Assembly: GCA_027475525.1 (NCBI GenBank)
Contig: JAMWFC010000065.1
Coordinates: 438,188-502,187, forward strand
From: Macrolepiota albuminosa
Taxonomy: Eukaryota; Basidiomycota; Agaricomycetes; Agaricales; Agaricaceae
Reading direction: 5' to 3'
Length of the DNA: 64,000 nt
Shown here: positions 2-51,530 of the stretch, piece by piece
How positions within the stretch are numbered: the first letter of the stretch is position 1
How the letters are laid out: every line of letters begins with the position of its first letter
Position numbers and translations under genes: made by a program
Notes under the pieces: generated by a model
What the model was told of the DNA's origin: nothing
Database searches by the model: none
What the model saw: the letters and a program-made list of their open reading frames with translations, nothing else

Positions 2-441
2 TTACGCGGGTCTGACGCAAACACCCCACCGTCAACAACTTGTATCAACATTCAATCCGTCCTCCGCGATGGACCTGCCTGGAAGGCATACACCCTCGTC
101 CGTCCGCGTCTTGGTGCTTCCGATGTCGATCCTGCCGAATTGACGTTTGCCTGGAGGGGAAGCCGATACATTGTTCGCAGAGTTCCTACAGTTGACTTTT
201 GTGAGTGTTTTCTGCATTGACGTTTGCCTGGAGGGGAAGCCAATACATTGTTCGCAGAGTTCCTACAGTTGACTTTTGTGAGTGTTTTCTGCATCTAAGT
301 CCTGATATTTCTCATCCTTCCTCAGCTTATCCATACATCAACGGTTATGTTTGGCGTGACTTCACAATTGCATGCCAACTTGGCGTCACGCTCACAAATG
401 CCAATCCCCAACACGACGAGGACGCTGACTTGTCTTGCTGA
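2..441 (+). CDS. 3' end of an unrecognised spliced gene, cut by the window edge
   Basis: An open frame enters at base 2 and runs to a splice donor GTGAGT (278-283 in the second copy of a 77-bp duplication). A 48-bp intron ends in CTCAG at 325, and the frame continues from 326 to a TGA at 439-441. The conceptual protein has an aromatic, basic stretch (AFAWRGS-like, then YIVRRVPTVDF) before the intron and an acidic tail after it (HDEDADLSC). I do not recognise the family. The duplication at 140-293 disturbs exon 1 and is probably an assembly artefact; with one copy removed the exon reads straight into the intron. Whether this is a host gene or transposon-derived cannot be told from the visible portion. 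Confidence 0.4.
140..293. repeat. 77-bp tandem duplication
   Basis: Copies at 140-216 and 217-293 are identical except for one G/A difference (165 versus 242). It falls over the exon/intron junction of the partial gene. Likely an assembly artefact. Confidence 0.95.
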
Positions 442-904
442 GTCAAATTTTCTGTTGATGAATTGAAATCTTACAATGCCTGCCCCAAGGCCGGTTATAT
501 CAGCAACACCCCCCCCCGAATCTCCTGTACTTGCTCCTACAAACACACCCCCCGTAGTCCCAGCCCCCGTAGTCCCAGCCAAAGTGATACTTTGAGTAGC
601 TCAAGCAGTGATGACGAATCATCGGACAGGCCTGGTGAGTTGCTCTGTACAGATCTCAATATTGTACTCATTCACGTAATCTAGCTGCTAAGCAAATCCG
701 GCGGTCCTAGCGGTATTTTTAATATATATTGTAGTTTATCTCGCGGCGCTGTTGTTTATTTTTTTTTTCTTTTGTAAACTTAATATCGTGTAGACCATCA
801 AATAAGATGGTATATCCAGTGTCTCCAGTGCTTCAAAAGATTAAGATTGTTAAGTTATTTACCACACAGTAGCCTATAAAAACGCTTGAGCCAGTGTTTG
901 TATT
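442..904. other. No confident gene; proline/serine-rich short frame
   Basis: After the upstream stop there is a short plus-strand stretch (about 463-634) encoding proline- and serine-rich sequence that ends at a GTGAGT donor-like site. It could be a further exon, but no continuation was found. From about 690 to 900 the DNA is AT-rich with no readable gene. Confidence 0.4.
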
Positions 905-1032: not shown

Positions 1033-1969
1033 TGATACGATGCTGTACCAGCAGTCAGGGACACACCATGCACCAGAAGTCAAAATAAACATTTAATTAT
1101 GGGCTGAAAACTGTAAGCCTCCTGGTAGCAGTCTCAACAAATTATATCTCCAAAAACACCCCAATAAATACACAGACAGTACAGAACAAAGGGCAGGGAC
1201 CAGCTCAAGCTATCAACTCAACAATAGTCCAACCACTGTTATGGGGAGGGGAAGCATGGAAGCTGGCAGAGGTGACAAAAGGGGATCAAATTGTGATGAT
1301 CTAGATCAAGATCTGATCTGACAATGCCCAATTTGATATGACTGAAAGGGGAAAGGGAAAGAAGCATGGAGGGATGTCAAAAGAGATGAATAGAATGGTG
1401 GCACATGCATTGAATGGAGGAAGGGAGGGATGAATGGAATGGTGGCACTGAAACATGCATCACCAAAATGGAAAATGGAACAACAAATTAGGTCAGGAAT
1501 GCTGGGAGGTCAAGAGCAAAAAGTCATGTGATTGGGTGGTCTGTGCACTGGAAAATTAGTATAAATAGTCCAAGTAGAGTAGAGAATGACCAGGCAATTG
1601 ATAGGCAAAGGCTTGGTGGTTCCCAGGGAGTGAATCACTTAGGCTAGAGTTTATTGAACACCTCTCATTGGAAGTCTATTGGCAAAGGCTTGGTGGTTCC
1701 CAGGGAGTGAATCACTTAGGCTAGAGTTTATTGAACACCTCTCATTGGAAGTCTATTGGTAAACAAAGGCTTGGTGGTTCCCAGGGAGTGAACTGCTTAG
1801 GCTGGAGTTTATTGAGAACCTTCTTCTGCCCATCAGGATATTTGATATTCTGTGAAGCACCCAATACATCAAGTTTTTATCATCAAGCACCAGTGTGGAT
1901 TAGAGGTCACTTTCTAAGACTTCAAGAAAGCCCCAGAACTATCAGTACTACTTGCAACCAAGTACTACA
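1033..1969. mobile_element. Solo LTR (family S), 860 bp without the assembly duplication
   Basis: Begins TGATACGATGCTG and ends AGTACTACA. It is flanked by the 4-bp direct repeat CCGT (1029-1032 and 1970-1973). A second copy lies at 7868-8726 (859 bp) with its own 4-bp flank ACAC. The TG...CA ends, short target duplications and absence of internal genes identify both as solo LTRs. It contains a 77-bp duplication (1604-1757) and a further diverged partial repeat of the same motif. The orientation of the parent element is unknown. Confidence 0.8.
1604..1757. repeat. 77-bp tandem duplication
   Basis: Copies at 1604-1680 and 1681-1757 appear identical, inside the solo LTR. Removing one brings the LTR to 860 bp, against 859 bp for its partner at 7868. 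Confidence 0.95.
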
Positions 1970-2030: not shown

Positions 2031-2827
2031 TCACTCCATCCTAATGTATACAGCCAACGTGGCTGTCCTGGAATTGCACTTTGACATATCAATCAAGCTA
2101 GTAGATTCACTTTCCCTTATCATTTTATGTCCAGTTGTCAATCCGTCGAATTGCACTTTGACATATCAATCAAGCTAGTAGATTCACTTTCCCTTATCAT
2201 TTTATGTCCAGTTGTCAATCTGTTGTGATACCAAGATTCGTTGGATGCAGATACATAGTGCCTTGAAAAATGAGAGTTGCCAAAATATATAACTCCTTTT
2301 AGTGTGTACTTACTCACACTTGCAGAATCAACCATCGTGATTTCAAGCCTCTTATTCACATTAACTGATATGCTTGATATATTGAAATAGACAATCGGAG
2401 GGGCCATCAAAAACTGAGAAACCTTGATTAGTCGTCTCGCACACAAATCACAACTTGTGCTTGTATAGCACCAAAAATCATCAATATGCTCATGAATGGA
2501 TGGTCTTCCTGGTGTCAGTATGATCATTACTGATTTTGATTTAACTCTCCGACGGGCCATGGCATGGTGAGCTGGACAGATCATAAACAAATCAAGCACA
2601 TCTGATGTGTTGACAGACAGTTCGTTAATCAATGAGTGTACAGATGTGTATTCACCAAATAGGAACTCCATGTGATTCCTCTGAGACAGCTTGGTCCAAA
2701 GCCATTCCCTGGTCTCCTTGAGGGCCTCATGATCTCCCGGCGCAATACTATGGAAATCTTTCACTAGATGTTTGTTTAGACATGGGCTCAATGTACTAAG
2801 CTTTTGAGACCATTCTAGAGGGTCTTC
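2031..2827 (-). pseudogene. Helitron C-terminal ubiquitin-specific-protease-like domain
   Basis: This is in the same frame as the helicase upstream and separated from it only by a TGA, so the two were one polypeptide. The Cys box (NSCAYDS) lies at the very end of the helicase frame. This segment supplies a His box of the form SHFSRHY, then WYH, resembling the GHY...WY pattern of C19/USP peptidases. When the 77-bp duplication at 2071-2224 is collapsed, the frame ends at TGA 2031-2033 instead of at 2138. Papain-fold deubiquitinase-like domains fused to PIF1 helicases occur in some fungal Helitrons. The USP assignment rests on the Cys/His boxes only. It is inactive as it stands because of the stop. 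Confidence 0.6.
2071..2224. repeat. 77-bp tandem duplication
   Basis: Copies at 2071-2147 and 2148-2224 appear identical, in the last codons of the Helitron protein. Removing one changes the C-terminus and gives a stop at 2031-2033. Confidence 0.95.
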
Positions 2828-6427: not shown

Positions 6428-6441
6428 TGGAACTGAGTCCA

Positions 6442-7867
6442 TCAATTAGACGTCTCCTCGCATCCGATACACTCCTGGGGCGGTGCCTGAGGGTCAGATT
6501 GACCAGCATCGGGTATACTGTCCGTAGAAGCATCACAGGCTGTTGGTACTGGAAGTCTGTTGATTGAAGTTTCTTGTTTACTCCGACACAAATGATTGGG
6601 AGGAGAGTGCTGGGGCATCGTCCGTGTGAGATCAATATATTCTGGCATCTTCTTGGATTTTTCAATGTTATCTATTACTTGGTCCATCGATACCTCATTG
6701 TCTCCATCAACCTTGTAAACAGCAGGGTCAACTGTTCTGTTTTCCTCCAGAGACTCTTTGTAAACGACCTTTACAGGTGGTGTATCTTCTGGATAGTCGT
6801 CAAGATTGCTATCGCATATTTCAATGTCCGTATAAGCAGAGTGATTAAGCTTGAGCCATTCCAATGCCTGCTTCACAGCGTTTCGGCGGACAAGCAAAGG
6901 CAATCGTTTGAGATCTTCCCCAGTAGGCTGACAAGGCCCTGTAAATAGAATAGCTAAAACATCATCCATGTCAGCCCTCAGAGGAGGCAGTACATGGTAA
7001 ACCTTTTCAAAGGCCCTGTAAATAGAATAGCTAAAACATCATCCATGTCAGCCCTCAGAGGAGGCAGTACATGGTAAACCTTTTCAACAGGAGATTCAAA
7101 AGCAATCAAATGTGCGTTCATTTTGCTGAGACCCAAGGATGACACATATGTGAAACAGAGAGACCTGTGTACTTTGGCAACAAGGAGCTGTTCAACCCAA
7201 TTTAAATGGGATAAAACAACTGGAACAGCACCAATCCAAAAACCGTTTGCAAGTGCATACTTAGGAACTTTGCCCTTCAACAATGGGATCCTGCACTCTG
7301 AACAGACAGAATTGCATCTATGATCCAACACCGGGCCTTTTATTTCTCTCACAGATTCCGTTCCTGAACGCCTCTCCACTCTGGTAACTCCTTTGGTGGA
7401 TAACACACCAAGAAACCCTTTCATACTTTTTAGAGTATGCATATCCTTAACTGGGCACAGCAAACCACAAACAGCGCAACCACTTTCTTCTAATTGCGCT
7501 GGACCTGTTTTGTTGCAAAAGTCGCGTATGATTTGAGTAGTTAGGCTTGGTGTAAGAGGCGCAGGAGGAAATTCGGGCTTGTCAGGGCCCCGAACATCTG
7601 CCTCAAGAACAACTTCATGCTTTTGATTACGCACTACAGAGCATCTCAGCATGTTTCTTGCTTGTGAACTGAGATCAGCCATCAATACAGTAGACCAACT
7701 AACACATTTCAAGCAACTGTGAGAATTAAATAAATCACTTGGATGTGATGCTCTAAAATGCTTAGGCAGCACAATCCCATGTATACGCGCTACGGATCTT
7801 AGCTGCTTCAATGTGAGATGTTGTGAAAGGGTAGACAAAGGCAGCCTAGCATGCACGTTGATGACAC
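6442..7867 (-). pseudogene. Helitron N-terminal DUF6570 domain and acidic linker
   Basis: The frame from 7867 down has a zinc-ligand-like set (CAVCGLLCPV, CNSVCSECRIPLLKG) followed by KYALANGFWIG, which is characteristic of the DUF6570 domain found upstream of Rep in fungal Helitron proteins. It appears to stop at 6978 only because of the 77-bp duplication at 6933-7086. With one copy removed it runs on in frame through a 160-residue acidic linker to a stop at 6442. The start codon is not present: the reading frame is already open at the solo-LTR insertion point (7867) and continues across it into bases 8727-8734. The domain is of unknown function. No catalytic Rep motif (HUH, YxxxY) appears in this segment. 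Confidence 0.75.
6933..7086. repeat. 77-bp tandem duplication
   Basis: Copies at 6933-7009 and 7010-7086 appear identical. Removing one fuses the two Helitron N-terminal reading frames. Confidence 0.95.
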
Positions 7868-8726: not shown

Positions 8727-8734
8727 ACACCAAC

Positions 8735-9791
8735 TGTGGTTGGGTGCGCTGGACGTATACGCAGTACCACACCGTCTCCAGCGCTTGGCGTGCATAGTTA
8801 TGAGGAGTCCCAACAGAGTCCCGGTGTGCTCAAGCAAAGGTGTTAAAACAACACGCTAGATGATAGCGCTTTGTGTGCTACCTGACAAATGGTAAGCATC
8901 GTAGTTTACACAAAGATATAGAAGACAAGGCGAATAGCGCAGCGTAGCGTGCCCATAGGTGGCACCGTAAACAACGAAGATGGGATAAACGAGGCTAGCG
9001 CCCAACTTAGTGACAAAGTTTGAGCAAGCTAGCGCGATTTAAATGCTAAGGATAACTTGGGTGCTCAAGAGATTACGATTCTTTTTATGTACATCCCAAG
9101 TAGCTATCTTTTATACTATGCGCTATTATATTTTTAAAATGAGTCCATTAGTGGAGCTACCAATTAGCGCCTCTCCTTGTGGTTGTAGCTAATGGCGACC
9201 TGTCAACGGCTACCGGTACGCATAGGGCAATGGCGACTAACGGCATTATAGCCCATTGGCCATGGCGACTCCAAACTGACTTAAACTTTTGTAGGAGTCT
9301 GCTCACTTTTTTAGTGTAATTCCAATTGGCCAGGCCTTTGGCAGGGTATGGTCGGAAAATCCTCGACAGACGCCGTGAGTTCTGCTGCCGGCGCTAAATC
9401 TAGTATCAATTTTTGATGAATAGAATGTCGGGCTAGAGTATATCCTGTTCCGTCGCTGTTGATTCTTTAGACTTCTGATTAAAGTGCCTTGTCCAATGGC
9501 AGCGCCTAATGCTAACCCCTTTATGGAACTGATCGGGGTTTGATCAAAGTCATGTCCCCACCGTCTTGCTAGCGCCCAGAGTCCCTGGTCTCCTAATCCT
9601 CCAAGGTCAATAAATGATATATGCTGAAGGCCTGATCATGGTAGTTAAGACTGATAACCAGCACCTATAATTGAGCGCCAAGATCCGTGGTTTCCTGTGT
9701 CCGAGAGGATCGCTAGGGTCTCGAGTATAGCCTGTGTCCATAGACCTATAGTGTACCCCTTGATGCGCTCAGTCCGAGTAGAAGCCTATCA
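8735..9791 (-). repeat. 3' LTR of element A
   Basis: In element orientation it begins TGATAGGCTTC and ends CCAACCACA. It has the same length as the 5' LTR once the latter's duplication is removed, and only scattered substitutions separate the two. Confidence 0.9.
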
Positions 9792-13619: not shown

Positions 13620-13888
13620 TGAAACAAAGTCAAGTATGGTTTAGCCTTACAGTCACACTAACAGAACCAGATTGATAGTCGATTCTAGTACTACAAAGTA
13701 TGACAGTAAAATTGGCTGCCTTATGTAAGGCAGCCAGCATGTATGTAAAGTAATGACGATTCTAGTACTACAAAGTATGACAGTAAAATTGGCTGCCTTA
13801 TGTAAGGCAGCCAGCATGTATGTAAAGTAATGAGAACTAATTAATATAATTGTATATTAATTAATTAACTAAAATACAATATGTTACA
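13620..13888 (-). repeat. 3' LTR of element B (contains a 77-bp duplication)
   Basis: In plus orientation it begins TGAAACAAAG and ends ATGTTACA. The 77-bp copies at 13681-13757 and 13758-13834 account for the extra length over the partner LTR. About five substitutions separate the two LTRs. Confidence 0.9.
13681..13834. repeat. 77-bp tandem duplication
   Basis: Copies appear identical, inside the 3' LTR of element B. The other LTR has only one copy. Confidence 0.95.
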
Positions 13889-13900
13889 TGCCCCCCTTTG
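13889..13900 (-). promoter_or_regulatory. Polypurine tract of element B
   Basis: Minus strand reads AAAGGGGGGCA directly before the LTR start TGTAACATATTG. Confidence 0.75.
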
Positions 13901-25087: not shown

Positions 25088-25237
25088 CCAATCAGGCGTT
25101 AATACATCTCTATTAATCTGGAAGCGTGCGTCAAAGAAGTTGATGCACTGTTCGATGCAATCACAGTCTAGGCTATTGGTCTAGACACGTAGTCTTCGTT
25201 CGTAGTATCAGAATTGAACCCGAAAAGTTCAAAAAAG

Positions 25238-25429
25238 TGAAACAAAGTCAAGTATGGTTTAGTCTTACAGTCACACTAACAGAACCAGATCGATAGTCAA
25301 TTCTAGTACTACGAAGTATGACAGTAAAATTGGCTGCCTTATGTAAGGCAGCCAGCATGTATGTAAAGTAATGAGAACTTATTAATATAATTGTATATTA
25401 ATTAATTAACTAAAATACAATATGTTACA
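25238..25429 (-). repeat. 5' LTR of element B
   Basis: 192 bp, the same ends as the partner LTR. On the element strand, bases 21-40 past the LTR (25199-25218) are about 17/20 complementary to a segment inside the LTR, which may be a second case of self-priming. Confidence 0.85.
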
Positions 25430-25540
25430 TCGTGATGGTGCCGCATAAGTTCTGTTTCCTAAGTCCCTTCGACCCTGCACAACGTCACTAGGTATATATC
25501 TGAGATTTTGGGTCTAGCGTTTTATGTCAGAGTCAGTGCA

Positions 25541-29814: not shown

Positions 29815-29968
29815 GAAACAAAATAAGTGTCTGTAGAAAGGTTTTCAGTAATATCCGAAGCTGTGAGGTATAGGTATGATAAAGCTTTGCTGAAACAAAA
29901 TAAGTGTCTGTAGAAAGGTTTTCAGTAATATCCGAAGCTGTGAGGTATAGGTATGATAAAGCTTTGCT
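29815..29968. repeat. 77-bp tandem duplication
   Basis: Copies at 29815-29891 and 29892-29968 appear identical, between protease and RT of element A. Confidence 0.95.
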
Positions 29969-30319: not shown

Positions 30320-31112
30320 TGTCACGACCCCCTCCGGATCCACCCCGAGACACCCCCGGAACCCCACCCGCTAACCCTCCCCCCGACCCCACAGAACGCG
30401 CCCCGCCATCACTACTACCGGCACTGCCATCACACGCATCAACGGCCGCCATCATCCGTCAACGATCACCATCAGCCAGCCCCCCAGGACCCTTGCATCA
30501 TGGACCCCGGGACCAACCGCCATCAACGATCGGATCTCGCGGCGCGGCCATCACGCATCACGCACCACGCATCACAACTCCCTCCACGCCAATTGATCGC
30601 GCGTCCCCACACGCGTGATCCCAGTATACAGTCCCTGCCCGCTACTCAATGGCCCCCGGAACTCATCCTAGACACCCCAGAACCCCGAGACACGTTCCCG
30701 TAGTACTTATAGCATAGCTCCCCACTGTATTCGCCAGTCTTGATATTGCATACACTGTTACTTGGATATTGCGTGCCCTCTGTTTGACTGGTACGCCTTG
30801 TTTGGTACACTTCGACTGGCACGCCTTAGTATTCGCGTGCTCTAAGCTTTGGTACGCACTTCGCGACTCTTAATTTACTAACTTGGTCTCGTCTTAGAAC
30901 CTCCGGTTCACGACTCGACCCCCTCTAACTCTCAGCCACCCCCAACCCAAAACTCCCGGGCTCTAGTCCCCTCTCCCGGGATTACCCCTGTCCTCGTCTT
31001 GAACCCCGGAGTCCTAGCCCCGGAGTTCCAGACACCCGAGTATTCGTAGGTCAAGTCCGCATCGTAAGGGCGTTGCTTTCCCGGAAGGCCCCCGACTCAG
31101 CGGAACCTGACA
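30320..31112 (+). repeat. 5' LTR of element C (793 bp)
   Basis: Begins TGTCACGACCCC and ends GGAACCTGACA. The same length as the 3' LTR after removing one 77-bp copy there. Confidence 0.95.
30707..30748 (+). promoter_or_regulatory. Probable TATA box and transcript start / self-primer of element C
   Basis: TTATAGC lies at 30707-30713. Twenty-eight bases downstream, 30736-30748 reads AGTCTTGATATTG, which is complementary to the 13 bases right after the LTR (12 pairs plus one G-U). If the mRNA starts here, its 5' end could fold onto the primer-binding site. The start site is inferred, not shown. Confidence 0.55.
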
Positions 31113-31138: not shown

Positions 31139-31292
31139 GTTCTTGATGGCTACGTATACTCACACTTACTACCCCACCGGGTACCAGACCAACCCTTACG
31201 GACGCCCGGTACCCGGTTCTTGATGGCTACGTATACTCACACTTACTACCCCACCGGGTACCAGACCAACCCTTACGGACGCCCGGTACCCG
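31139..31292. repeat. 77-bp tandem duplication
   Basis: Copies at 31139-31215 and 31216-31292 appear identical and span the Gag start codon (31146 and again 31223). Confidence 0.97.
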
Positions 31293-34026
31293 AGCACTAC
31301 TCTGCGCAGACCCCCCGCCCCGTCTATCCACCTCTCCCGTACGAACCTCCATATCTCCACCGCCACTGGGCCCCCGACCCGTCCCTCTACGACCTGGGGC
31401 CCTCAGCCAGCTGGGCCTCTCCGCCCAATTTAGCCATGGCGCGACCTGTGGAGGTCCCCTCATACCGGAGCATCCCCGGGGGCCTGCCGGAGACCCCACC
31501 TGTACCCAGTGGACCTCGCCCGATTCCCCCCAGCGAGGGCCCCTTTGCACCCACCCTCTACTACGGTTATCAGCGCCCCGTCCCCCAACCCCGAGAACCC
31601 CGAGGACCCCCCTACCCCGACTACCCCCCTCGTCATTACCCGGCCGCCGCCCCACCCGCTCGAACCCCTCCCTCGCCAATGGGACGACGACGCCTCGAGG
31701 AGTATGAACGGCAACGGGACGAGGTACTCCGCTCCCTCAGGATCTCACCAGAGGACTTCGCGCAACGGACCAGGACGCTGCTCGTGGAATTCGGACACGA
31801 CGACTTTGAAGGCACTCCGGAGGAATGGGCTCACTGCCTGGTCGAATTCGGGGATCGCCTCATGCGAGGAGAACTCCCAGAGCAAACCATGGTAAAGTAT
31901 AGGCGCAATACGATCCTCCGGGAAGAATTACAGCAACTGCTCGACGAAGTCCACGCGTCCCCCTCCCCTCGGCCCCTCAACAACCCCGCGGACCCAGGTC
32001 GCTCGATTCACATTTGACGGGAACCCCCGGAACCGGCCCCAGCAGTCCCGGCAGCCCCCACGGTCCCCACTCCGGAGCAACGACAACGGGAAGAACGGCA
32101 GAACGCCTCAGCCATATTACGGTCCCTCAACCCGACTGGAGGCCTCTTCGATCAACCCGCTGCTCGCACGGTAGGCTTGTCAACTCGCCGCAGGGCTAAC
32201 TCCGTTCCTAGTACCTTTGAGACCTGGGGGCAGCCCCAGAGACCCCTGGAACCCCTCCCGCGAATGGACAACGCCCGACCGCCGCCCCCGACGAGCCCCG
32301 GTAGAGCCCGGGTGGACACCCCTAGTACGGACGACACGCTATGCTACATTGACGAGCTCACGCGCGACAACAACGAACAACGTCCCGTGCCCGTGCCCGC
32401 CCCGGCACCAGCACCGCCCCCCACGTCCGCCCCGGCCCCTCCGGAACGCAACTTCCGCCGCGATCCGCCACCCCACTTCGACCTACGGAACCCCCCGCGA
32501 CCCCTGATGCAAGCCCGACCCTCCCGGATTGAACGTCCCCCGCGCAACCCGGCACCCGACCCAGCACCTAACCCCCCTCCGCCCGACCCGACACCGCCGA
32601 ACCCTCCCCGACCGCCTCCGCCACCCCCAGCTGAACCTCGAGGACGACCCCCAGGCCCTCCACCTCCGCCACTCCCTGCGTGGAGACCCGGGCCCCCTCC
32701 TGGCAGGAACGAACCCCCTTGGGACAACGGACCTCCCGGGCGTGGACCCCCAGGTGAGCCACCTGGAGGAGGACCTCCCGGCGGGTGGGGCCCCGCCCTT
32801 GGTGCTTTTCCTCCTCAAGGAGGGGGGGGTAATCACTATTACTACTATTACAATGCTGGCCCCCCTCCCCGCAACGCTGCCGGACCGGACAACGCTCGCA
32901 ACGCCCTCGCCCACGAAGGACGACTGGACATCCAAAAGCCCGACGCTTTCACGGGCCGGGACCCCCGAAAATGGCGTACCTTCCTCACTCAGTGTCTCAA
33001 TACGTTCCAGGCAAAGCCGCTCACGTTTCAGGTTGACAGCTCCCGGGTGGCCTTTGCCGCATCATACCTCCAGGGGATTGCCTTCGATCACTACACGGCC
33101 CTCATCCAGTTCGACCCCAACAATCCGGCACTCGCTCGCTGGCAGGCCTTCATCGACGAGTTCTCCGGGAAGTTCGGAATCTACAACACCGTGGCCGAGG
33201 CCGAGGACAACCTCTTCAATCTCCGGATGCGCTCGGAAGAACGTTTCACCACCTTTATCGTACATTTTGAGAAGGAAGCTTACGAAACAGGTTGGAACTA
33301 CAGCGCCCTCCGGTACGCCCTCCGCCGCGCCCTGCCACAACGCATCAAGGACGTCCTCCGACTCGCCCCGAAACAACCCTCCTACGACGGATACAAGGCC
33401 CTCGTCATGCAGATCGACCAACGCTACTGGGAAGACCGCAGCGAGTATTCAAATTCCCGACCCCCCTGGAACCCTAGAGGAGGACCCCCTTGGCCCTCCG
33501 GCGAAGCCCCCAACCCCCAAGGTCGGAACCCCGGTCCCCCCGCGTTAACCCTAGAGGAGGACCCCCTTGGCCCTCCGGCGAAGCCCCCAACCCCCAAGGT
33601 CGGAACCCCGGTCCCCCCGCGTTCCCTGGCAGCCAGCCCCCGGTGAGTCGCGGCCCGCCCAATGCTAACCCCGGCAGCAGCGCCCGCCCCCAGGCCCAAC
33701 TCAACGCCGCCGTGGCCGCCCACGACCCGGACGACGTGCCAAGCCCCGAGGAACCCCCGGAAGACCCTGGAGACTCCGACTTCGACGACGAACGGGACGA
33801 AGAGGCCCTCCGGGCCAACCGGCTTCAGAAGAAGGGACGACCCTGGATTGAAGTCCCGATGGATGTGCAGGAACGACGGAGAAGGGAAGGTGTCTGCATA
33901 CTCTGTGGTGAGAGAGACCATTTCATCTCCGAGTGCCCCAAACGACAGGTCATGGGACGTGCCACCTGGACCTTTGAAGGGGAGGACGCCACCTACGAGT
34001 ATTCGGAAAACGACCCGGCGATTTAG
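31146..34026 (+). CDS. Element C Gag
   Basis: ATG at 31146 (copy at 31223) gives MATYTHTYYPTGY. A Tyr/Pro-rich 264-codon section ends at TGA 32015-32017. The same frame continues without interruption through a proline-rich stretch and the capsid-like region (LTFQVDSSRVAFAASYLQG, FIDEFSGKFGIYN, RRALPQRIKDVL). Collapsing the 77-bp duplication at 33471-33624 carries the frame into the nucleocapsid CCHC knuckle CILCGERDHFISEC and a TAG at 34024-34026. The single TGA, in TTTGACGG context, may be a CGA-to-TGA mutation or a read-through site. The protein would be about 900 residues, long for a fungal Gag because of the Pro-rich insert. Confidence 0.85.
33471..33624. repeat. 77-bp tandem duplication
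   Basis: Copies at 33471-33547 and 33548-33624 appear identical. Removal joins the capsid and zinc-knuckle parts of Gag in one frame. Confidence 0.97.
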
Positions 34027-37000
34027 ACCCGGAAGACGCCCTAAATCGCGGAATCAACCCCGACGTCTTCTCCGCCCCGGTCTCACATCTTCGCTCTACG
34101 ACACTCATACCGGACACCCTCACGGCTTATCTACCCTCCCACTCTTCGCACTCCCTCCTCCTCAAAACCCGCCTCACCCCCTCCGGAACTCCCCTCAACA
34201 CCCTCGTCGACAGCGGCGCCACCGACAACTTCATCGACGAAGCATGGTCTACCCTCGCCCCGGAACCCGCCCAGCGACTCCCGGTCCCGGTACGACTCTG
34301 CCTCTTTGATGGGACGAAGCATGGTCTACCCTCGCCCCGGAACCCGCCCAGCGACTCCCGGTCCCGGTACGACTCTGCCTCTTTGATGGCGACGCCTCTA
34401 CGGCGGGGGACATCACTCATTTTATAACCAAACTCCACCCTTCCGCACCCCTGGTCCTAGGGCTCCCGTGGCTCCGAGACACTAACCCCCACATCGATTG
34501 GCGACACCTCACCCTTCGCCTGACCCGGGACCCAACCCCCGACGACCAGCAACTCCCCTTCGACATCCCCCACTCCTCAAACCCAACCCCGAAGGACCCC
34601 CCGGACGAGCCCCCACCACCCCCCGGACTCCAGTCCCGCTCGTCCCGATCCTTCGTCATCAATGCCAGGCTGGACGGCACCCCGGGACCGATATCGGCCC
34701 TTATCGACAGCGGAGCCACCGGAGTATTCATCAGCGACGCTCTCGACCTCCCCCACGACTCCCTCGACCAGCCCCTCCGCCTGCAACGCCTCGACGGCAC
34801 CCCCTCCTCCTCCGGCCCCATCCAAAGGTCTCACTCAGGACGCGTGACCCTGGACAACAACTACGAGTTCACTTCCGACTTCCTGGTCACGCGACTTCAC
34901 AAATCGACCCCGATGGTGCTGGGACTACCCTGGCTGCGCGACACGAACCCCGACATCGATTGGAGGACGCTCACCATGACCTTCCCGGGACCCGAAGACC
35001 ACCCCTCGACCGCCGTGCACCTCCGGGCCCTAGGAAACGACCCGACGCCCGACACCCCCGGGACGACTGCCGCGCCCCCCACACATGCACCACCCACGCC
35101 CGTCCGAGACCGCAAGGCCCCCGATCGACCCCCGAACATTCCTCGGAACAAGTACAAAGGGCCGAACTACCCCTGCCGGTCTCAGACACGCGTCACACCC
35201 GCTCCGGCCGATGCTTCCGCAACCCCGATCGACCCAAGCGCACTCGACATTAGGATCATTGGGGCCGCGTCACACCCGCTCCGGCCGATGCTTCCGCAAC
35301 CCCGATCGACCCAAGCGCACTCGACATTAGGATCATTGGGGCCGCCCCCTTCGCCCGCCTCATGAGGGAGGGAACTCCCACGTTTCAGCTGCACACCTCG
35401 CCTTCTCTCCTGGAAGAACACCTACGAGGGGGCGCTATTCCCCCGGAACAGAAAACTAAGGAGCAAATCCTCCGAGAAGTAGTTCCCCCGGAGTATCACG
35501 AGTTCACTGACGTATTCTCCGAAGGAGACGCCAAGGAGATCCCATCCTCCGAGAAGTAGTTCCCCCGGAGTATCACGAGTTCACTGACGTATTCTCCGAA
35601 GGAGACGCCAAGGAGATCCCCCCTCATCGCCCCTATGATCACACCATCGACCTCGAGGAAGGAGCCACCCCCCCTTTCGGCAAGGTCTACAACATGTCGG
35701 AGGTCGACCCTATGATCACACCATCGACCTCGAGGAAGGAGCCACCCCCCCTTTCGGCAAGGTCTACAACATGTCGGAGGTCGAGCTCCGGGCTCTCAAG
35801 GACTACCTCGACGAAATGCTCGGTAAGGGATTCATCCGACCCTCCGCCTCTGCCGCCGGAGCCCCGGTTCTATTTGCCAAGAAGAAGGACGGCTCGCTCC
35901 GACTCTGTGTCGACTACCGGGGACTCAATAAGATCACCAAGAAGAACCGCTACCCGCTCCCGCTCATTGGCGATCTGGTCGATCGACTTCGCAGTGCCAA
36001 GGTCTACACGAAAATCGACCTCTGCTCCGGTTACAACAACGTCCGCATCGCCCTGGGACACGAGTGGAAAACCGCGTTCCGCACGCGGTATGGTCTGTTT
36101 GAGTACCTTGTGATGCCTTTCGGAATGACTAACTCCCCCGCCACGTTCCAATACTTCATGAACGACATCTTCCACGACATGAGCGACGTCTTCGTGATAG
36201 TCTACCTGGACGACATCCTCATCTATTCCGACTCGAAGGAGGATCACCAGAAGCACGTCCGGCAAGTCCTCGAACGCCTCCGGGAGCACAATCTCCACGC
36301 CAAGCCCGAAAAGTGTTCGTTCCACACAGAAGAGGTCGAGTATCTTGGCGTCATCGTATCCCCAAATGGCGTTGGCATGGATCCCCATAAGGTCGAGGCT
36401 ATCGTCAACTGGCCGCAGCCCCGGAATGTGAAGGAAGTACAGTCCTTCCTGGGTTTCGCTAACTTCTACCGGAGGTTTCTAGACAACTACTCCGGGATTA
36501 CGAAACCCCTCAACCGGCTCACACGCAAGGACATCGCCTGGAACTGGGACAGTAAGTGCCAGAGCGTCTTTAACCTGCTCAAGGAGGCTTTCACAGTCGC
36601 CCCGGTACTCCGGCACTACGACCTGGCCCTCCCGATCATCCTAGAATGTGACGCGTCCGACTACGCCATCGCCGGGATCCTCTCACAGATGGAGCCTGAC
36701 GGTGGGGAACCCCGGCCAGTCGCTTTCTACACCCGGTCCATGATCGACGCCGAGCTCAACTACGACATTTACGACAAGGAACTCCTCGCCATCGTCGAAG
36801 CCTTCAAGCAATGGCGGGCCTATCTCGAGGGAGCCCGGCACCGGATCCAGGTCTACTCAGATCATAATAACCTGCAGTACTTCACCACGACCAAGCAACT
36901 CAGTCGACGGCAGGCCCGATGGTCTGAGATCCTCTCGGAGTACGACTTCACAATCCAATACCGCCCGGGACGACTTGGCGCCAAGCCCGACGCCCTCACC

Positions 37001-38663
37001 CGCCGTCCGGACGTCTACCCCAAGAGGTCGTTCGAGGCGGAACGTAATGCGTTCAATCATCGCGTGACGCCCTCACCCGCCGTCCGGACGTCTACCCCAA
37101 GAGGTCGTTCGAGGCGGAACGTAATGCGTTCAATCATCGCGTGGTGATCCCTCCCAAACATTTGAATGCCTTACTAATTTTAAACGAGGAAGGGACCCTG
37201 AGTCAGATCCGCCGCGCCCCCGAGACAAGTACTTCACCGACCACGACCCCCGCAGACCCCCCGATGGGACCGACCAGGACCCCGCCTTCTCCCTGTCCCC
37301 CGACAAAAAACTCCTCCTCCGGGATGGCCGCATCTACGTCCCGGATCACGCCCGACTTTGCTACGACGTCCTCCGTCAACACCACGACCACAAGCTCCGG
37401 GGACATCCTGGAATACGTAAGACCCTCCAGCTCATCTCCCGGACTTACTTTTGGCCAGGGTTGAAGAAGGACGTGACCCGTTACATTCGATCATGCAAGC
37501 CCTGCCTCCGGGCCAAGGTCCCCCGACACCGACCGTACGGACTCCTGAAACCCCTGCCGGTCGGACGACGCCCCTGGTCCTCAATATCTCTGGACCACAT
37601 CGTCGAGCTCCCGGAATCTGAAGGGTTCGATGCCATTCTCGTCATTGTGTGCAGGCTAACCAAACAGGGCATCTTCCTACCCTGCCACACCACGGATACC
37701 GCCCCGGACTTCGCCCGGCTGTTCCTCGAGCACGTCTTCGCCAAGCATGGTCTCCCGGACGACATCGTCTCCGACCGGGGCCCCCTCTTCGTGTCCAAGT
37801 TTTGGACTTCCCTGTGTAAGGCACTTGAAGTAAAGACTAACCTCTCTACCGCCTACCACCCCGAAACCGACGGTCAAACCGAAAGGGTCAACCAGTCCCT
37901 TGAGCAGTACCTCCGGCTGTACGTCAACTACTTGCAGGACGACTGGCGCGCCGAGCTCCCCCTGGCCGAGTTCACGTACAACAACACGCTGCACTCTGCC
38001 ACCGGGGTATCGCCCTTCTTTGCCAACAAGGGATACCACCCTCGACTGACGCTCTCGCTCCGGGACATCCCATCGCACGCCGCCCACGAGGTGGCCCGGG
38101 ATCTCCAGTTCCTTCACGAGTTTCTCCGGGAAGAGATCGATACCGCGAACCAGGCCTATGCGAAACATGCCGACCGGAAGCGGGAGGACACCCCCGACTG
38201 GACCCCCGGGACAAAGGTATGGTTAGATCAACGCCACCTCCGCACCCGCCGGCCCTCCCCAAAACTCAATCACAAGCGCCTCGGCCCGTTCAAGATTCTG
38301 AAGAAGGTCTCATCCCACGCCTACAAGATCGAGCTCCCCCCGGGACTTAAGGGGCTGCACCCGGTATTCCACGTCCGCCTCCTGGAACGACACCCCCCGG
38401 ATCCCTTCCCCGAACGACGACCCGAACCCCCTCCCCCGGTCGAGGTCGAGGACGAGTACCACTACGAGGTCGAAGACATCCTCGACTCCCGGAACATTCG
38501 TGGACGACCCCACTTCCTCGTACGATGGAAGGGATATGGCCCAGAAGACGACACTTGGGAGCCGCAACGAAACCTCAAAGGCGCCCTCGACAAACTCCGG
38601 GACTTCCAGCAACGGCACCCGGGAGACGACCCCCCCGGGCGCAGGACTCACAGACGGCAGTAA
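33978..38663 (+). CDS. Element C Pol: tandem protease-like domains, RT, RNase H, integrase, chromodomain
   Basis: Open from 33978, overlapping the end of Gag in the -1 frame. Two retropepsin-like units follow: [11 protein letters not shown]...VLGLPWL (about 34200-34500) and [11 protein letters not shown]...VLGLPWL (about 34690-34960). RT has [10 protein letters not shown] and [10 protein letters not shown]. RNase H has [22 protein letters not shown] and YSDHNNLQY. Integrase has the HHCC motif (H...CKPCLRAK), [18 protein letters not shown] and [10 protein letters not shown]. The C-terminal chromodomain reads [20 protein letters not shown]...DTWEP, to TAA 38661-38663. Five 77-bp duplications break the frame and each is corrected by collapsing it. 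One unexplained -1 shift remains near 37141-37206. All catalytic residues seen are intact. The chromodomain probably steers insertion to marked chromatin. Confidence 0.93.
34236..34389. repeat. 77-bp tandem duplication
   Basis: Copies at 34236-34312 and 34313-34389 appear identical, in the first protease-like domain. Removal restores the frame. Confidence 0.97.
35189..35342. repeat. 77-bp tandem duplication
   Basis: Copies at 35189-35265 and 35266-35342 appear identical, between protease and RT. Removal restores the frame. Confidence 0.97.
35467..35620. repeat. 77-bp tandem duplication
   Basis: Copies at 35467-35543 and 35544-35620 appear identical, upstream of RT. Removal restores the frame. 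Confidence 0.97.
35631..35784. repeat. 77-bp tandem duplication
   Basis: Copies at 35631-35707 and 35708-35784 appear identical, at the start of RT. Removal restores the frame. Confidence 0.97.
36989..37142. repeat. 77-bp tandem duplication
   Basis: Copies at 36989-37065 and 37066-37142 appear identical, at the end of RNase H. Removal restores the frame into the integrase linker. Confidence 0.97.
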
Positions 38664-40874: not shown

Positions 40875-41744
40875 TGTCACGACCCCCTCCGGATCCACCC
40901 CGAGACACCCCCGGAACCCCACCCGCTAACCCTCCCCCCGACCCCGCAGAACGCGCCCCGCCATCACTACTACCGGCACCGCCATCACACGCATCAACGG
41001 CCGCCATCATCCGTCAACGATCACCATCAGCCAGCCCCCCGGGACCCTTGCATCATGGACCCCGGGACCAACCGCCATCAACGATCGGATCTCGCGGCGC
41101 GGCCATCACGCATCACGCACCACGCATCACAACTCCCTCCACGCCAATTGATCGCGCGTCCCCACACGCGCGATCCCGGTATACAGTCCCTGCCCGCTAC
41201 TCAATGGCCCCCGGAACTCATCCTAGACACCCCGGAACCCCGAGACACGTTCCCGTAGTACTTATAGCATAGCTCCCCACTGTATTCGCCAGTCTTGATA
41301 TTGCATACACTGTTACTTGAATATTGCGTGCCCTCTGTTTGACTGGTACGCCTTGTTTGGTACGCTTCGACTAGCACGCCTTAGTATTCGCGTGCTCTAA
41401 GCTTTGGTACGCACTTCGCGACTCTTAAGTTGTTTGGTACGCTTCGACTAGCACGCCTTAGTATTCGCGTGCTCTAAGCTTTGGTACGCACTTCGCGACT
41501 CTTAATTTACTAACTTGGTCTCGTCTTAGAACCTCCGGTTCACGACTCGACCCCCTCTAACTCTCAGCCACCCCCAACCCAAAACTCCCGGGCTCTAGTC
41601 CCCTCTCCCGGGATTACCCCTGTCCTCGTCTTGAACCCCGGAGCCCTAGCCCCGGAGTTCCAGACACCTGAGTATTCGTAGGTCAAGTCCGCATCGTAAG
41701 GGCATTGCTTTCCCAGAAGGCCCCCGACTCAGCGGAACCTGACA
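40875..41744 (+). repeat. 3' LTR of element C (contains a 77-bp duplication)
   Basis: 870 bp; 793 bp after removing one copy of the 77-bp repeat at 41353-41506, which then equals the 5' LTR. Confidence 0.95.
41353..41506. repeat. 77-bp tandem duplication
   Basis: Copies at 41353-41429 and 41430-41506 appear identical, in the 3' LTR of C. The 5' LTR has one copy. Confidence 0.97.
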
Positions 41745-41749
41745 CGGGT

Positions 41750-44205: not shown

Positions 44206-45339
44206 TGTGGTTGGGTGCGCTGGACGTATATGCAGTACAACACCATCTCCAGCGCTTGGCGTGCGTAGTTATGAGGAGTCCCGACAGAGTCCCGGTGTGC
44301 TCAAGCAAAGGTGTTAAAACGACACGCTAGATGATAGCGCTTTGTGTGCTACCTGACAAACGGTAAGCGTTGTAGTTTACACAAAGATATAGAAGACAAG
44401 GTGAATAGTGCAGCGTAGCGTGCCCATAGGTGGCACCGTAAACAACGAAGATGGGATAAATGAGGCTAGCACCCAACTTAGTGACAAAATTTGAGCAAGC
44501 TAGCGTGATTTGAACGCTAAGGGTAACTTGGGTGCTCAAGAGGTTACGATTCTTTTTATGTACATCCCAAGTAGCTATCTTTTATACTATGCGCTATTAT
44601 ATTTTTAAAATGAGTCCATTAGCAGAGCTACCAATTAGCGCCTCTCCTCGTGGTTGTAGCTAACGGCAACCTGTCAACGGCAACCAGTATGCATAGGGCA
44701 ACGGCGACTAACGGCATTATAGCCCATTGGCCACGGCGGCTCCAAACTGACTTAAACTTTTGTAGGAGTCTGCTCACTTTTTTAGTGTAATTCCAATTGG
44801 CCAGGCCTTTGGCAGGGTATGGTCGGAAAATCCTCGACAGACGCCGTGAGTTCTGCTGCCGGCGCTAAATCTAGTATCAATTTTTGATGAATAGAATGTC
44901 GGGCTAGAGTATATCCTGTTCCGTCGCTGTTGATTCTTTAGACTTCTGATTAAAGTGCCTCGTCCAATGGCAGCGCCTAATGCTAACCCCTTTATGGAAC
45001 TGATTGTTGATTCTTTAGACTTCTGATTAAAGTGCCTCGTCCAATGGCAGCGCCTAATGCTAACCCCTTTATGGAACTGATCAGGGTTTGGTCAAAGTCA
45101 TGTCCCCACCGTCTTGCTAGCGCCCAGAGTCCCTGGTCTCCTAATCCTCCAAGGTCAATAAATGGTATATGCTGAAGGCCTGATCATGGTAGTTAAGACT
45201 AATAACCAGCACCTATAATTGAGCGCCAAGATCCGTGGTTTCCTGTGTCTGAGAGGATCGCTAGGATCTTGAGTATAGCCTGTGTCTGTAGACCTATAGT
45301 GTACTCCTTGATGCGCTCAGTCCGAGTAGAAGCCTATCA
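44206..45339 (-). repeat. 5' LTR of element A (contains a 77-bp duplication)
   Basis: 1134 bp; 1057 bp after removing one copy of the 77-bp repeat at 44928-45081, equal to the 3' LTR. Confidence 0.92.
44928..45081. repeat. 77-bp tandem duplication
   Basis: Copies at 44928-45004 and 45005-45081 appear identical. The partner LTR at 8735 has one copy. Confidence 0.97.
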
Positions 45340-46498
45340 ACGTATCCTGCAGCAATTGGGTACGACAGCAAACCTACATCATCTGCATGATTGATGAATT
45401 TGAATACATGTCGTGGGTTGTGTTTGCCCTGACTCACGTCAATGTACATATCTACTTGTGAAAAGGAGAACGCATAGGTTTTACCACCGCCTATAGGTCG
45501 CCTGAGGACACGTTTAGGTTTATGAAGCAATCTTTGACGTCCGAGGGACTTGCGTGCAGACAATCAACCACTCCTACGGGAAGCTCTAGACACAGATAGA
45601 TGCAAATACCCTAATATTCTAAGTCCAGGTACCACAAACGATTTTACTGCAGAAAGGGTTGAGCTAATAACGATGTGTTGGTCCAAACAAGGCCACGTAT
45701 CAGGCAAATGGTATCCACGCAGTAAGGTTTCGACAGCAAACGTAACATTACATACATTGTTTCTCATCATGCGGTTACACAATATAGGACCTAGGTGGCA
45801 TCGGTGCAGGCACACTAGAAAATCATGATGGGACATGAGGGATTGCATCACAAAAAGTCACGTTATCCTGCATCGTTTGAATATCGCCGGAACAGTCAAA
45901 AATCTACAATAATATAACCAGGGCATATAGAACTGACAAAAAACATAGTATTGATTAGGTATGTTGACCCTAAAAAAGGAAAATACCCAATGTGTGTGTG
46001 TCCTGTTGCCCATGGAGTCTTGAATTGCAGATTAGGTATGTTGACCCTAAAAAAGGAAAATACCCAATGTGTGTGTGTCCTGTTGCCCATGGAGTCTTGA
46101 ATTGCAAGATATGTGCACTGATTTGTGCACATATCAAACCGTATAGTAGTATGCCATTCTGTATAGGTACGATAGCATCGCTCAGTATTATAGATCAAGC
46201 ATTGCTCAGCGTTTGACAGAACACATAGGTATTGAGAGCGCGCGGGTTGAATTACTGTAGGCTCCCTGTCGACTGTACATGAGATATGTCGCACCAGATT
46301 AGATACGTGCATACCTTGTGAACGATGCATATTTAAAAACAACGAGCAATATATGGACTGATAGCCAGGCACCGTACACAGACAATCTCATCATTGAAAT
46401 CAATTCACAAGTACAAAACAGGTTACATATGAAGCAACCATCACTATAGTCACCTGATCTAATATTACATCATAACTCAAAACCATCAATGGAGCAAT
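45340..46498. other. No recognised gene right of element A
   Basis: Short minus-strand frames (about 45851-45350) give readable but unrecognised sequence (IGGGKTYAFSFSQVDMYID, FINHADDVGLLSYPI). They are too fragmentary to call. This DNA does not continue the Helitron/solo-LTR sequence seen left of element A. A 77-bp duplication lies at 45953-46106. Confidence 0.4.
45953..46106. repeat. 77-bp tandem duplication
   Basis: Copies at 45953-46029 and 46030-46106 appear identical. Confidence 0.97.
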
Positions 46499-47148: not shown

Positions 47149-50100
47149 CTACTTACGCCCCTTGGACTTGGCCTTCCCCTTAGTAGCACCGGTGCAGTCC
47201 ACCACAAGAGCAAGTTCAACAAGACGCATCATGTAAGTAGGGTCGTGCAACACAATGACAAACAGCAAGTTCAAGATGAGATACCTGAAAAACGTGAGAA
47301 CATATTCAAACACAATGAACACCAACGTACTTGTGACCACTAGACTCATACCAGTTGGCACTAAAACCAACACTGACAACAGAACTTTCCAGAACCTCAA
47401 CATTGTTGTTTTCATATAGACACCAAGAAGGAAGAGAATCAAAGTCACTGAGCATAAAACGGAACAGTTGACAGGTTTCTACCCTGCCATCATATACAGG
47501 TACTGAGAAAATGTTAGAACACTATCTGGAAACGAGCATAACAGGAACCTTTTTGATCAAACTCAACGACCGGCTTATACAGATTGGCAACCCCAGCCAA
47601 TTTGAACACAGGAGCATCCATCTCGGTAAACATTGAGTTACTCTTTATACCAGAGGGCCTCTTGGACTTGGAGGTCGTGTACCCACCATCTGAAGTCACA
47701 TCAAATGCAGAACCAACAAAACAACGAATCACGACTCACCAACATTGTATGTAGGGGTTTTACCCTCACCTCGAGTAACAAATGCCACACCATTACTAGA
47801 AATAGTACCTCAAACACCGTCCGGGAGGTTGAAAACACAACCCAAAACAGCAAACTGGCAAAGAGACTCTTGATGGAATTCAACAATCTCGATACGATGC
47901 TGACCATACTTGTCAGACGGACTCCCAACAAGAACAGAACTGTCAAATAAATGCGAGGCAGTTACCACTCCAGAGGTAATACAGACACAGAAGGGACCCG
48001 TCAAATCCCGAAGAGCCAATCGCTGCTTCGGGGCATTGAGTTGGACAGGGTCAGTCCTGGCCAAGTTAACGTAGAAGGCGTGACGATTGAATAAAAGAGA
48101 AGACGACAACGAACTATTGAAAAAGTCATACATAAGAACAGAAAAAAATACAAAACAAGAAGCAAAATGCACGTCCAATTGTCTTCATTCATATGCTCAG
48201 CAATAACACCAATGTGCGCGTAACGGATTTTACCATCACTGTTCATTTTATCATATCCAAAAGGCTGGATTATGAGTTGTTTCCTGACGACAAGTTGAGT
48301 AAATGCAAGCAAAATAGTAGACGTTGGTCCGCACTTAAGGAACGGCAGTCCTTGATAAGTCGACACCATAAACTTTTCTTGGATAGAAGGCTGCATGACC
48401 GCATCCACTGCAAGCTCTTCTGCAGGATTGAGACAAGGATCAATGCTACAGCAAGACATTAACAAATGAGGTACAGAGATGAAGGGAAGAAAATAAAATA
48501 AAATAAAATAAACATGCGGTTCAACAGCATCTGAGCAGACAATTGAAAGCGGAGCAGCCAAAGCAGACAAAACGGGGATGGGAGGCACAGGAGACTCGCC
48601 ATCTTCCAACAATCCATAATCGGGAGCAGAACTATCATTGACAATAAAGTCCGATAGCGTGTCACTATTATTGTCCACAGCATCCCAATTGTCGATGTTA
48701 TCATTGCCCGCCATGACAACAAGAGGCTTTTTAACAAGCGGCCTAGGTACGGGCTGCTTAGCAATCCTATACCAAAGTGAAAAGAACAAAATGAGCACAA
48801 GCAAATAACAGAAGAAACAATTCACACTGACACAACAGGCAAGTCATCATCGTCATCGTCAGACAATTCAACAAGTTTTTTTGGTGCAAATTCGTCATCC
48901 AAATTTGGACTAGCGGCCTTGGCCGCAGCTCCGGCATGCAACCTTTTAGGACTTGATTGGCTTGCAAACAAAGCCTTCTCCGTCATGGTACAGGAGCGCC
49001 TTGAGAGTGCAAAACATAAGGCAAACCACACATGAACACAAACAAATCAGAAATCACGTACACAGCATGACCACTTGACAAGGTCGCATCTTCAGCAGTC
49101 AATCTAGCCATAGCCTGACTACATAGCAGCAGTCAAGCAAAGTAACAAGGAAAACGGAGATACAAACATGACAGGTGTATCAACAGATGGAATGGACACA
49201 GCTCTCTTTTTCTTGGGTGACGGCATGGCAGGAACACTAACAGAACTGACACCAAGACATTAAGTAAAATGATAGTCACAAATACAACAAGTAACACACA
49301 AACCCATCATGCAAAGCAGAAACCTTTTGCTTAGACGGCAACCCGCCATCAATAGACCTAAAGAACATTAGCATTACAGATTACAACACAAAAAGAGTAC
49401 TCACTCACCAGATGGTTCACCTGTTTCAGATCCAGAAGCTGTTGCTGCAGAAACGCTATCAAATATGCTACAATAAGCCGCCTGCTCTCCATCCGGTGCT
49501 TCTGTATTGGGAAGAGGTGCCCCAGTAGCAGGTGCCGTATTAGAATTGGTATGATTGACCTCACGGTCACCTGCAGGGGAATCCTCGACGTTCAAAACAT
49601 CGGGCGCCACGTCCATAGGGTCTGGTTCAGGGGAATTCTCAACGTCACGATTCAAAATAACAGGCGATACGTCCATAGCATCCTCCGACGCACGGATGTT
49701 ATTTGGAGAGGAAGGTACATCGGTTAACTGGTTGAGGTTTTTGGAACCTGTGGTATCTTCTGATGCACGGACAAGTGTGTCTGTACTAGGAGACGGGTCA
49801 ATATGGGAATCATCAGGTGTGACATCCATAAGGTCCCCTAAGTCAATGATATTGTTCAGAGAAGCGGGCAAGTTGTCAAAAAATTGGGCCTCGTAGGTGA
49901 AGACTGCTCATAACCATCAGGCTTGTCGCCAACAGTTGGATGAGGAACATCTATGTGACCCGACGGGCTTGCCAAGCAATTAGAGGGTCCTGGTAAGGCA
50001 TCCGATCCAACAGGGAATGGAGCGGGTCCAAACAACTGGCTTGCATCATTGTCTTGTTGGGTTTTGTTGCTCGTTGAAGTGGTCAATGCAGGAGTCAAAG

Positions 50101-51530
50101 TAGCAAGCGAAGCATTGCAGAGACGCTTCTTAGAAGGGGAAGGGACGGATACAATTTCAATCCAAGCAGGTGCCGCTTTGTTAATTTGATTAGTCAGGGT
50201 ACTCAAAGCAGATGACAACTCGGTTAGCAGGTCACCACCCTGAGCTGCCAAGAATAACACTCGCCATAATGCTTGATCCGCCTCGACGATGATACATGGA
50301 CGTTCGAGCCCTCCAACATGCCTCCAAAGCTTTGGAAGCAATCAGAGTCGCTCAAACAAAATAAAAGGTAGATCAATTTACCTGTAGCAGGGAGTCTTTA
50401 CTGGTTAGTACACCATACTCATGAGGAAGAAGTAACATGAGCAGGAATACAAGTAATGCCAAATAAAGTGTGTTGTGCATAATAGTCGAGCAACCATATG
50501 AACCAGCACTATTGATGGCACTGCCATGCGTGGTATGAAGGTATTTTAATTGATCTTGGTCACTAGACCTGCTTTTGCTATACACATCGAAGACAATGAG
50601 CAGACATTCTAATAAGGACGGGAAGGACAATACTCGTCAACGATGATATTTTCGATTGCCTTGATATCGGACGGTAAATAGAGGTTACCCTGAGGCAACT
50701 TTAATGGACATTCAAACTGATATCAATTAAGATTACCTTCAATAGACAACTCAGATGTAGCGCTTACTGAGGCAACTTTAATGGACATTCAAACTGATAT
50801 CAATTAAGATTACCTTCAATAGACAACTCAGATGTAGCGCTGCACTTGTAAGATTGATTATGGTGTTTTGAACACCCTTATTGCTGACCCGAGAAGTGAG
50901 TTCAGAATACAGCTTCATGCGTGGACCTGTAAGCTTTGGGGTGGGGCGGTCTCTTGGTCGTTCTCCTCTAGATTCGGCATGTATTTTATTCAGATGTTAT
51001 ACGAGGTTTTTATGGAATTTCCTGATAAGGTTTGGGAGTGAGTTTAAAGGGTTTACCAGCTAAAATACAAACTCAATCAATGAAATGGGTAATAGGGATA
51101 AACCTACTGATCGACTATTCTCCGTCATTGGCCCTGAGGTTCGTGGAGGGCGCATCTTATCCTCACACACAAGGGTGTATATGTTGAGTACACGATATGA
51201 CAAAATGACTTTGAAAAAGGCTTTGAGTGCCTTATCTTTTGGTACACAATAAACAGGGACATCATTTATAGTATCTTGAAATATGGAGAATACGTCTGAA
51301 CGGCTAGCAAGAGAAATATTTTTTTCTTCATCAGACAACACATGTGCAAGAGCCTTAAATAGGTCAACAGAGCATGCATGAAAAAAACCTAATCAACTTG
51401 CCGCCACAGGTGTGCTGTCAAAGTGAGAGGACAGGTCAGAAGTGTTAGGAACAACGTCTGAATACCAAGAGTGATTGTAAAACTTAGAGTTGTCAATGCG
51501 AGGGTGGCTAGATAACATTGTACCGTCCAT
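47149..51530 (-). CDS. Unrecognised multi-exon gene
   Basis: The ATG at 51530 (MDGTMLSSHPRIDNSKFY) starts a series of exons separated by short introns. Recognisable coding blocks in order: HVLSDEEKNISLASRSDVFS (about 51320), a helical block at 50341-49860 (LWRVLFLAAQGGDLLTEL), an acidic repeat-bearing block at 49870-49405 (MDVSP/MDVAP units), SSPKRLHAG...LVELSDDDDDD (about 48950), NDNIDNWDAVDNNSD (about 48700), a compact block at 48430-48180 (QEKFMVSTYQGLPFLKCG), one at 48080-47810 (QRLALRDLTGPFCV... RIEIVEFHQES) and a last exon ending KGKAKSKGRK at 47149. The N-terminal half looks disordered and acidic; the C-terminal half looks globular. I do not recognise the family. Exon borders are approximate. 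A 77-bp duplication lies at 50690-50843, between coding blocks. Confidence 0.55.
50690..50843. repeat. 77-bp tandem duplication
   Basis: Copies at 50690-50766 and 50767-50843 appear identical. Confidence 0.97.

Follow-up and report, generated by a model that had tools for sequence, protein, structure and literature searches.

The stretch analysed here, 64,000 nucleotides of the genome of Macrolepiota albuminosa (GenBank assembly GCA_027475525.1, contig JAMWFC010000065.1, positions 438,188 to 502,187 of the forward strand; hereafter the window), holds several copies of mobile elements, among them one called element C, with gag and pol coding regions between two long terminal repeats (LTRs). 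It also contains seventeen tandem duplications, listed in a preliminary description of the sequence, in which a segment of exactly 77 bp is followed directly by a second copy of itself. Here we examine whether these duplications belong to the organism or to its assembly.

Seventeen tandem duplications of one length

All seventeen duplications were present, each with two abutting copies and a period of exactly 77. They lie in LTR-like repeats, in coding parts of elements and in other sequence:

139..294, 77-bp tandem duplication, single internal mismatch within a 79-base match
1604..1759, 77-bp tandem duplication, identical run 79, a diverged third copy behind it at an offset of about 81
2071..2220, 77-bp tandem duplication, identical run 73
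6933..7087, 77-bp tandem duplication, identical run 78, in a DUF6570 coding region, domain split over two frames
13680..13833, 77-bp tandem duplication, identical run 77, inside one member of a 194-bp repeat pair
29815..29968, 77-bp tandem duplication, identical run 77
31139..31292, 77-bp tandem duplication, identical run 77, close to the gag start of element C
33470..33623, 77-bp tandem duplication, identical run 77, gag of element C, frame 2 to 1
34236..34389, 77-bp tandem duplication, identical run 77, element C, frame 0 to 2
35189..35345, 77-bp tandem duplication, identical run 80, pol of element C, frame 2 to 1
35467..35620, 77-bp tandem duplication, identical run 77, pol of element C, frame 1 to 0
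35631..35784, 77-bp tandem duplication, identical run 77, pol of element C, frame 0 to 2
36989..37143, 77-bp tandem duplication, identical run 78, pol of element C, frame 2 to 1
41353..41505, 77-bp tandem duplication, identical run 76, 3' LTR of element C
44928..45081, 77-bp tandem duplication, identical run 77, inside one member of a 1062-bp repeat pair
45953..46106, 77-bp tandem duplication, identical run 77
50690..50841, 77-bp tandem duplication, identical run 75

The pairs previously placed at 13681 and 33471 begin one base earlier, at 13680 and 33470; with these starts, their copies agree over 77 bases. The statement that sixteen pairs were identical and one had a single mismatch had to be corrected: identity extends over at least 77 bases in 13 of the 17 pairs, and those at 140, 2071, 41353 and 50690 are imperfect. 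Nothing is inserted between the copies at any of the 17 sites, and they therefore do not have the form of target-site duplications of a mobile element. In an exact-period scan covering periods 25-300, with a threshold of runs of at least 40 bases and at least 0.6 of the period, no tandem period other than 77 was detected in the window. The window gave no match to Rfam.

Length spectrum in the assembly

The assembly has a total of 100,137,612 bases in 129 contigs, the window being on the contig labelled C11. By protein similarity, the genome is that of a Termitomyces-like basidiomycete: its RPB2 is closest to proteins of Arthromyces, Lyophyllum, Tricholoma, Asterophora, Moniliophthora and Termitomyces (96 to 94 per cent), and Termitomyces accounts for four of the five top hits of a RING protein encoded in the sampled stretch L021 (65-90 per cent over 35-85 per cent of the query). 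Twenty stretches of 10 kb each, taken from ten contigs, were sampled beyond the window (200 kb), so that window and sample together represent 264 kb of an assembly of around 100 Mb. When the exact scan was applied to the 200 kb, 35 duplications of period 77 were obtained, along with one of period 76, one of period 50 and one array of 61-mers with its multiples. Period 77 was present in 12 of the 20 stretches, with ten cases in one of them (L020) and none in eight. Such clustering would be expected if contigs broke mostly at repeats. A scan tolerating mismatches, covering periods 60-99 over the 264 kb, identified 60 tandem segments, 52 of them of period 77, two of 81 and one each of 61, 64, 67, 69, 76 and 84. 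The excess over neighbouring periods expected in the preliminary description is therefore observed in this sample, where a single segment has period 76 and none has period 78.

The period-76 duplication (L020:75-205) has an identical run of 55 and an apparent small length difference near its end, and is possibly an edited 77-bp duplication. The 61-mer case (L022:450-1243) is a long, nearly identical array of 61-bp units.

The lengths of the exact runs and the sequences around their borders were then considered. Among the 43 exact runs of at least 77 bases, the length was 77 in 26, 78 in 14, 79 in two and 80 in one, the expectation for an exact 77 extended by chance being 24.1, 12.1, 4.6 and 1.5, respectively. 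Since the run lengths match chance extension, with no excess over it in these 43 runs, there is no microhomology beyond the 77 bases. No common motif was found either in the 20 bases around the left border, the junction and the right border of the 26 clean cases, in both orientations; the most informative column reached 0.23 bit, compared with a mean maximum of 0.26 in the controls (26 junctions).

Repeat pairs and reading frames

Three of the duplications are located in repeats of which the window has a second copy with a single unit, so that these copies could be used as internal controls:

30320..31112, 5' LTR of element C, 793 bp, single unit (control for 41353)
8730..9791, copy of the 1062-bp repeat without duplication (control for 44928)
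25237..25430, copy of the 194-bp repeat without duplication (control for 13680)

Each alignment has one gap only, of 77 bases, at the duplication. The 5' LTR (793 bp) and 40875-41744 (870 bp) share 780 of 793 bases, with the gap at 41353; 8730-9791 (1062 bp) and 44201-45339 (1139 bp) share 1021 of 1062, with the gap at 44928; and 25237-25430 (194 bp) and 13619-13889 (271 bp) share 189 of 194, with the gap at 13680. The claim that three LTR pairs become equal when one copy is removed is thus sustained as regards the single 77-bp gap in each pair, but the lengths obtained by alignment are 793, 1062 and 194 bp rather than 793, 1057 and 192. The members of the pairs differ from each other at 13 of 793, 41 of 1062 and 5 of 194 bases (1.6 to 3.9 per cent), whereas between the two units of a duplication there are no differences at 13680 and 44928 and one at 41353. 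If they were real, all three duplications would therefore have to postdate their host elements. Another repeat pair (1033-1657 and 7868-8590) was considered as a fourth LTR test and left unused, as its alignment stops within the duplicated stretch and presents several small gaps and none of 77 bp.

Division of 77 by 3 leaves a remainder of 2, so each insertion of this length shifts the reading frame. At the six coding sites of element C that were examined (33470, 34236, 35189, 35467, 35631 and 36989), reading the open protein frame on each side as it stands, the frame changed in all six cases as a 77-bp insertion demands, in agreement with the frame effect described earlier for this element. 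The broader recommendation to disregard most apparent frameshifts can be followed at the 77-bp sites of element C, but not at two other places away from such sites: around 37,170-37,240, where pol of element C changes from frame 1 to frame 0, and in a Gypsy copy (approximately 14.7-23.7 kb) whose open reading frames are interrupted, there being no 77-bp duplication between 13,834 and 29,814.

Phase and borders of the duplications among repeat copies

The copy in the window was compared with 20 copies fetched from elsewhere in the genome at each of four sites, 13681, 35631, 6933 and 50690 (80 fetched copies, loci L029-L068 and L071-L110). A period-77 run of at least 30 bases was present in 14 of 20 copies at 13681, 19 of 20 at 35631, and two of 20 at both 6933 and 50690, that is, in 37 of the 80, and no run of at least 30 bases was found at any other period between 40 and 129. 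For 13681 and 35631, most of the copies chosen were top-ranked matches of the search, which enriched them in duplications, so the high counts at these two sites result from the way the copies were chosen and are uninformative on frequency. The phase of the duplication varies among copies of one repeat, with some phases recurring in several copies. The element around 29815 is a further example, other copies of it (L003 and L005) being duplicated by 77 bp at a different start.

Contigs built on a de Bruijn graph end at k-mers with two possible neighbours, so if the duplicated 77-mer, X, were such a contig end, the base immediately preceding or following it should vary among the copies of the repeat. 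For the analysis of this base, each copy was cut at its junctions and both sides were mapped separately, so that a duplication could not create its own variant signal. Six runs were excluded for lying close to a stretch end (five at 35631 and one at 50690), as were runs shorter than 77, and overlapping positions were merged; as a control, the junctions were shifted by 4-25 bases in 10,000 trials. A variant base was present at the border in 21 of 25 distinct clean junctions, while the mean in the control was 11.09 and the maximum 20 in the 10,000 trials. The effect was maintained when the minor base was required at least twice (16 of 25 junctions; control mean 6.00, maximum 14) or at least three times (12 of 25; control mean 3.48, p 0.0001). 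Earlier forms of the test had given 20 of 24 (mean 10.73) and 17 of 20 (mean 8.80), and the form with alignment ends masked, in which two fewer copies were mapped, gave 17 of 20 (mean 8.85, maximum 16).

The duplication at 6933 was also searched for in the rest of the genome. With the two-copy sequence as query, 39 other places were listed, two of which span the whole of it, while 37 match a single unit (positions 1-144). In the window, one frame covers profile positions 1-90 of the Pfam DUF6570 domain and the next frame positions 66-133; the two ranges overlap, so the shared part is read twice. The surrounding minus-strand region (2831-7889) contains PIF1-like helicase and DUF6570 coding pieces, has many copies in the genome, and is probably, as we take it, a Helitron-like element.

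Origin of the duplications

We consider it almost certain that the duplications are an artefact of the assembly, absent from the organism, and arose when contigs sharing an end of k = 77 bases were joined without trimming. The length spectrum, the exact homology, the varying phase, the variant borders, the 77-bp gaps in the repeat pairs and the jumps of the reading frame all support this interpretation, which was the one offered in the preliminary description. Short reads would have been built into contigs by way of a de Bruijn graph with k = 77, and these contigs would stop at branching 77-mers, beside the bases that differ between repeat copies in a repeat-rich genome. Both contigs meeting at such a 77-mer would carry it, and a later end-to-end joining, presumably along long reads, a scaffold or a path of the graph, would keep both copies, resulting in A-X-X-B where A-X-B is expected, with X of exactly 77 bases. 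The few mismatches may come from later polishing or from imperfect joins between near-identical contigs. Contigs produced by SPAdes overlap by k, and 77 is among the values usually employed. We assume that a graph of the SPAdes or SOAPdenovo type was used, since k = 77 with an overlap of k suits either.

Several observations do not fit easily with an overlap left untrimmed. In nine of the 52 period-77 segments in the 264 kb, the run falls short of 77 bases or contains a mismatch, and in the window, taking the 77-base frame first proposed, there is one mismatch in the pair at 140, two in that at 2071, one at 41353 and two at 50690. An overlap taken straight from the graph should contain no mismatches, and these pairs can be accommodated only if polishing or approximate joining is assumed in addition. 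Four of the 25 junctions (one at 13681, two at 35631 and that of 6933) have no variant border base in the copies sampled. The exact 77-mer of 6933 is found twice in the window and in three other places (contigs C62, C66 and C78), with neighbouring bases all alike, and whole-genome pattern searches allowing one mismatch revealed no branch, since outside the tandem pair no different base was found adjoining the exact 77-mer; a branch there would require a copy, or a nucleus, that is not represented in the assembly. Finally, no shared 77-bp ends were present at the two 100-N gaps found within the fetched loci.

One of these gaps (L016:565-664) is bordered by two sequences of which each is nearly the reverse complement of the other, with 85 matches in 100 bases, as would be seen where an inverted repeat was left unresolved.

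The facts that the copies abut with nothing between them and that there is no microhomology are also what would be expected from real duplications generated by a cellular process with a fixed step of 77 bp, for instance the filling-in and sealing of paired nicks made 77 bp apart. Such a process could act on all the types of sequence in which the duplications lie, and it would not need the branch that is missing at 6933. We nevertheless regard it as very unlikely, since a border motif is absent, the lengths show no spread around 77, and the borders track the bases that vary among repeat copies, for which a nuclease would have no reason; in addition, the phases differ among copies of one repeat, and the 6933 stretch is single-unit at 37 of the 39 other places listed. 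A narrower version, in which a process particular to this lineage has recently made thousands of tandem copies of exactly 77 bp, with neither motif nor microhomology (e.g. through filled-in nicks whose spacing is fixed by the span of a protein complex), we hold to be extremely improbable. As for ordinary duplications mediated by microhomology or slippage and alike in length by coincidence, tandem duplications that seem real do exist in this genome, such as the diverged third copy behind the pair at 1604 and an 81-bp repeat in L024 (10 mismatches in 147). The lengths of duplications arising in this way vary, however, and the length spectrum, with 52 of 60 segments at 77, contradicts this origin, as does the lack of any excess of run length past 77. 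These two older repeats are moreover diverged, while the 77-bp copies are nearly identical, and the probability of this explanation seems to us negligible.

An artefact of another kind with a fixed length of 77, such as that of a gap filler, a step of read patching or an overlap of k-1 with k = 78, would leave an identical length signature. The mismatches of the pairs at 2071, 41353 and 50690 are confined to the final four bases of the 77-bp unit, and their position, close to the 3' end of the first copy, suggests some later editing, which would be in line with such a step. On the other hand, the variant bases at the borders point to ends of graph contigs, and an odd overlap fits graphs whose contigs share exactly k bases, with k odd; in assemblers where neighbours share k-1 bases and k is odd, the overlap would be an even number. 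This possibility is thus slight, a little below that of the fixed-step process, and untrimmed contig overlaps of k = 77 remain by far the best explanation of the data.

Comparison with known systems and consequences

A search of the literature for overlaps of 77 bp in relation to SPAdes led to a match concerning 127 bp, not 77. In that report, the ends of SPAdes contigs overlapped by a fixed 127 bp, which were removed by hand when plasmid contigs were closed (PMC6232296). In work on Termitomyces cryptogamus, to which no link of the present assembly was found, the reference was produced with Canu and Pilon, and SPAdes was applied to the Illumina reads of one parental strain (PMC10021994). The likeness to the 127-bp case resides in a terminal overlap of one fixed length that needs trimming upon closing or joining; the difference is that it was trimmed by hand there, while here an overlap of 77 would have been left in at many inner joins. 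False duplications of the heterotype and homotype classes have been traced to haplotypes or to read errors, a gap between the copies being named as their mark in the available part of the source (PMC9516828). In both situations sequence that exists once in the organism is shown two times and may pass for a gain, but the duplications described here are of one length and have no gap, the copies being adjacent and the window containing no N, and trimming of the overlap would suffice to remove them. It has also been reported that the combination of short-read and long-read assemblies created false duplicates (PMC9635638), which is the point of similarity with the present case; there, failures of merging were counted on genes, and the main text does not use the word "tandem".

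If the interpretation is right, the assembly would contain on the order of ten thousand false 77-bp insertions: extrapolation of 35 cases in 200 kb gives around 17,500 in 100 Mb, or about 1.3 Mb, with a range of two standard errors, computed by hand, of roughly 6,000 to 29,000. These insertions would shift reading frames, lengthen LTRs and mimic recent duplication, genes and mobile elements would seem broken where they are probably intact, and gene models, pseudogene counts, the dating of elements and surveys of tandem repeats could err wherever they cross such joins. A simple screen for this would be to look for a single over-represented, odd tandem period with abutting exact copies. The finding is a useful warning and a screen, not biology.

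Other repeats in the window

The diverged third copy behind the pair at 1604 (1604-1815, offset of about 81) has 4 mismatches in 52 bases, and its divergence indicates that a real, old tandem repeat seems to adjoin the false one. Arrays with units of 28 bp are located at 942-1019, 46492-46761 and 59732-59847; the consensus units of the last two have GAGCAACAGCTTAC in common, and these two arrays may constitute one minisatellite family. A 64-bp tandem array with 3.7 copies and 88 per cent matches occupies 60317-60554. The segments 57708-57931 and 59069-59292 form an inverted repeat with arms of 224 bp that are 88 per cent complementary and lie 1137 bp apart, perhaps a small DNA transposon.

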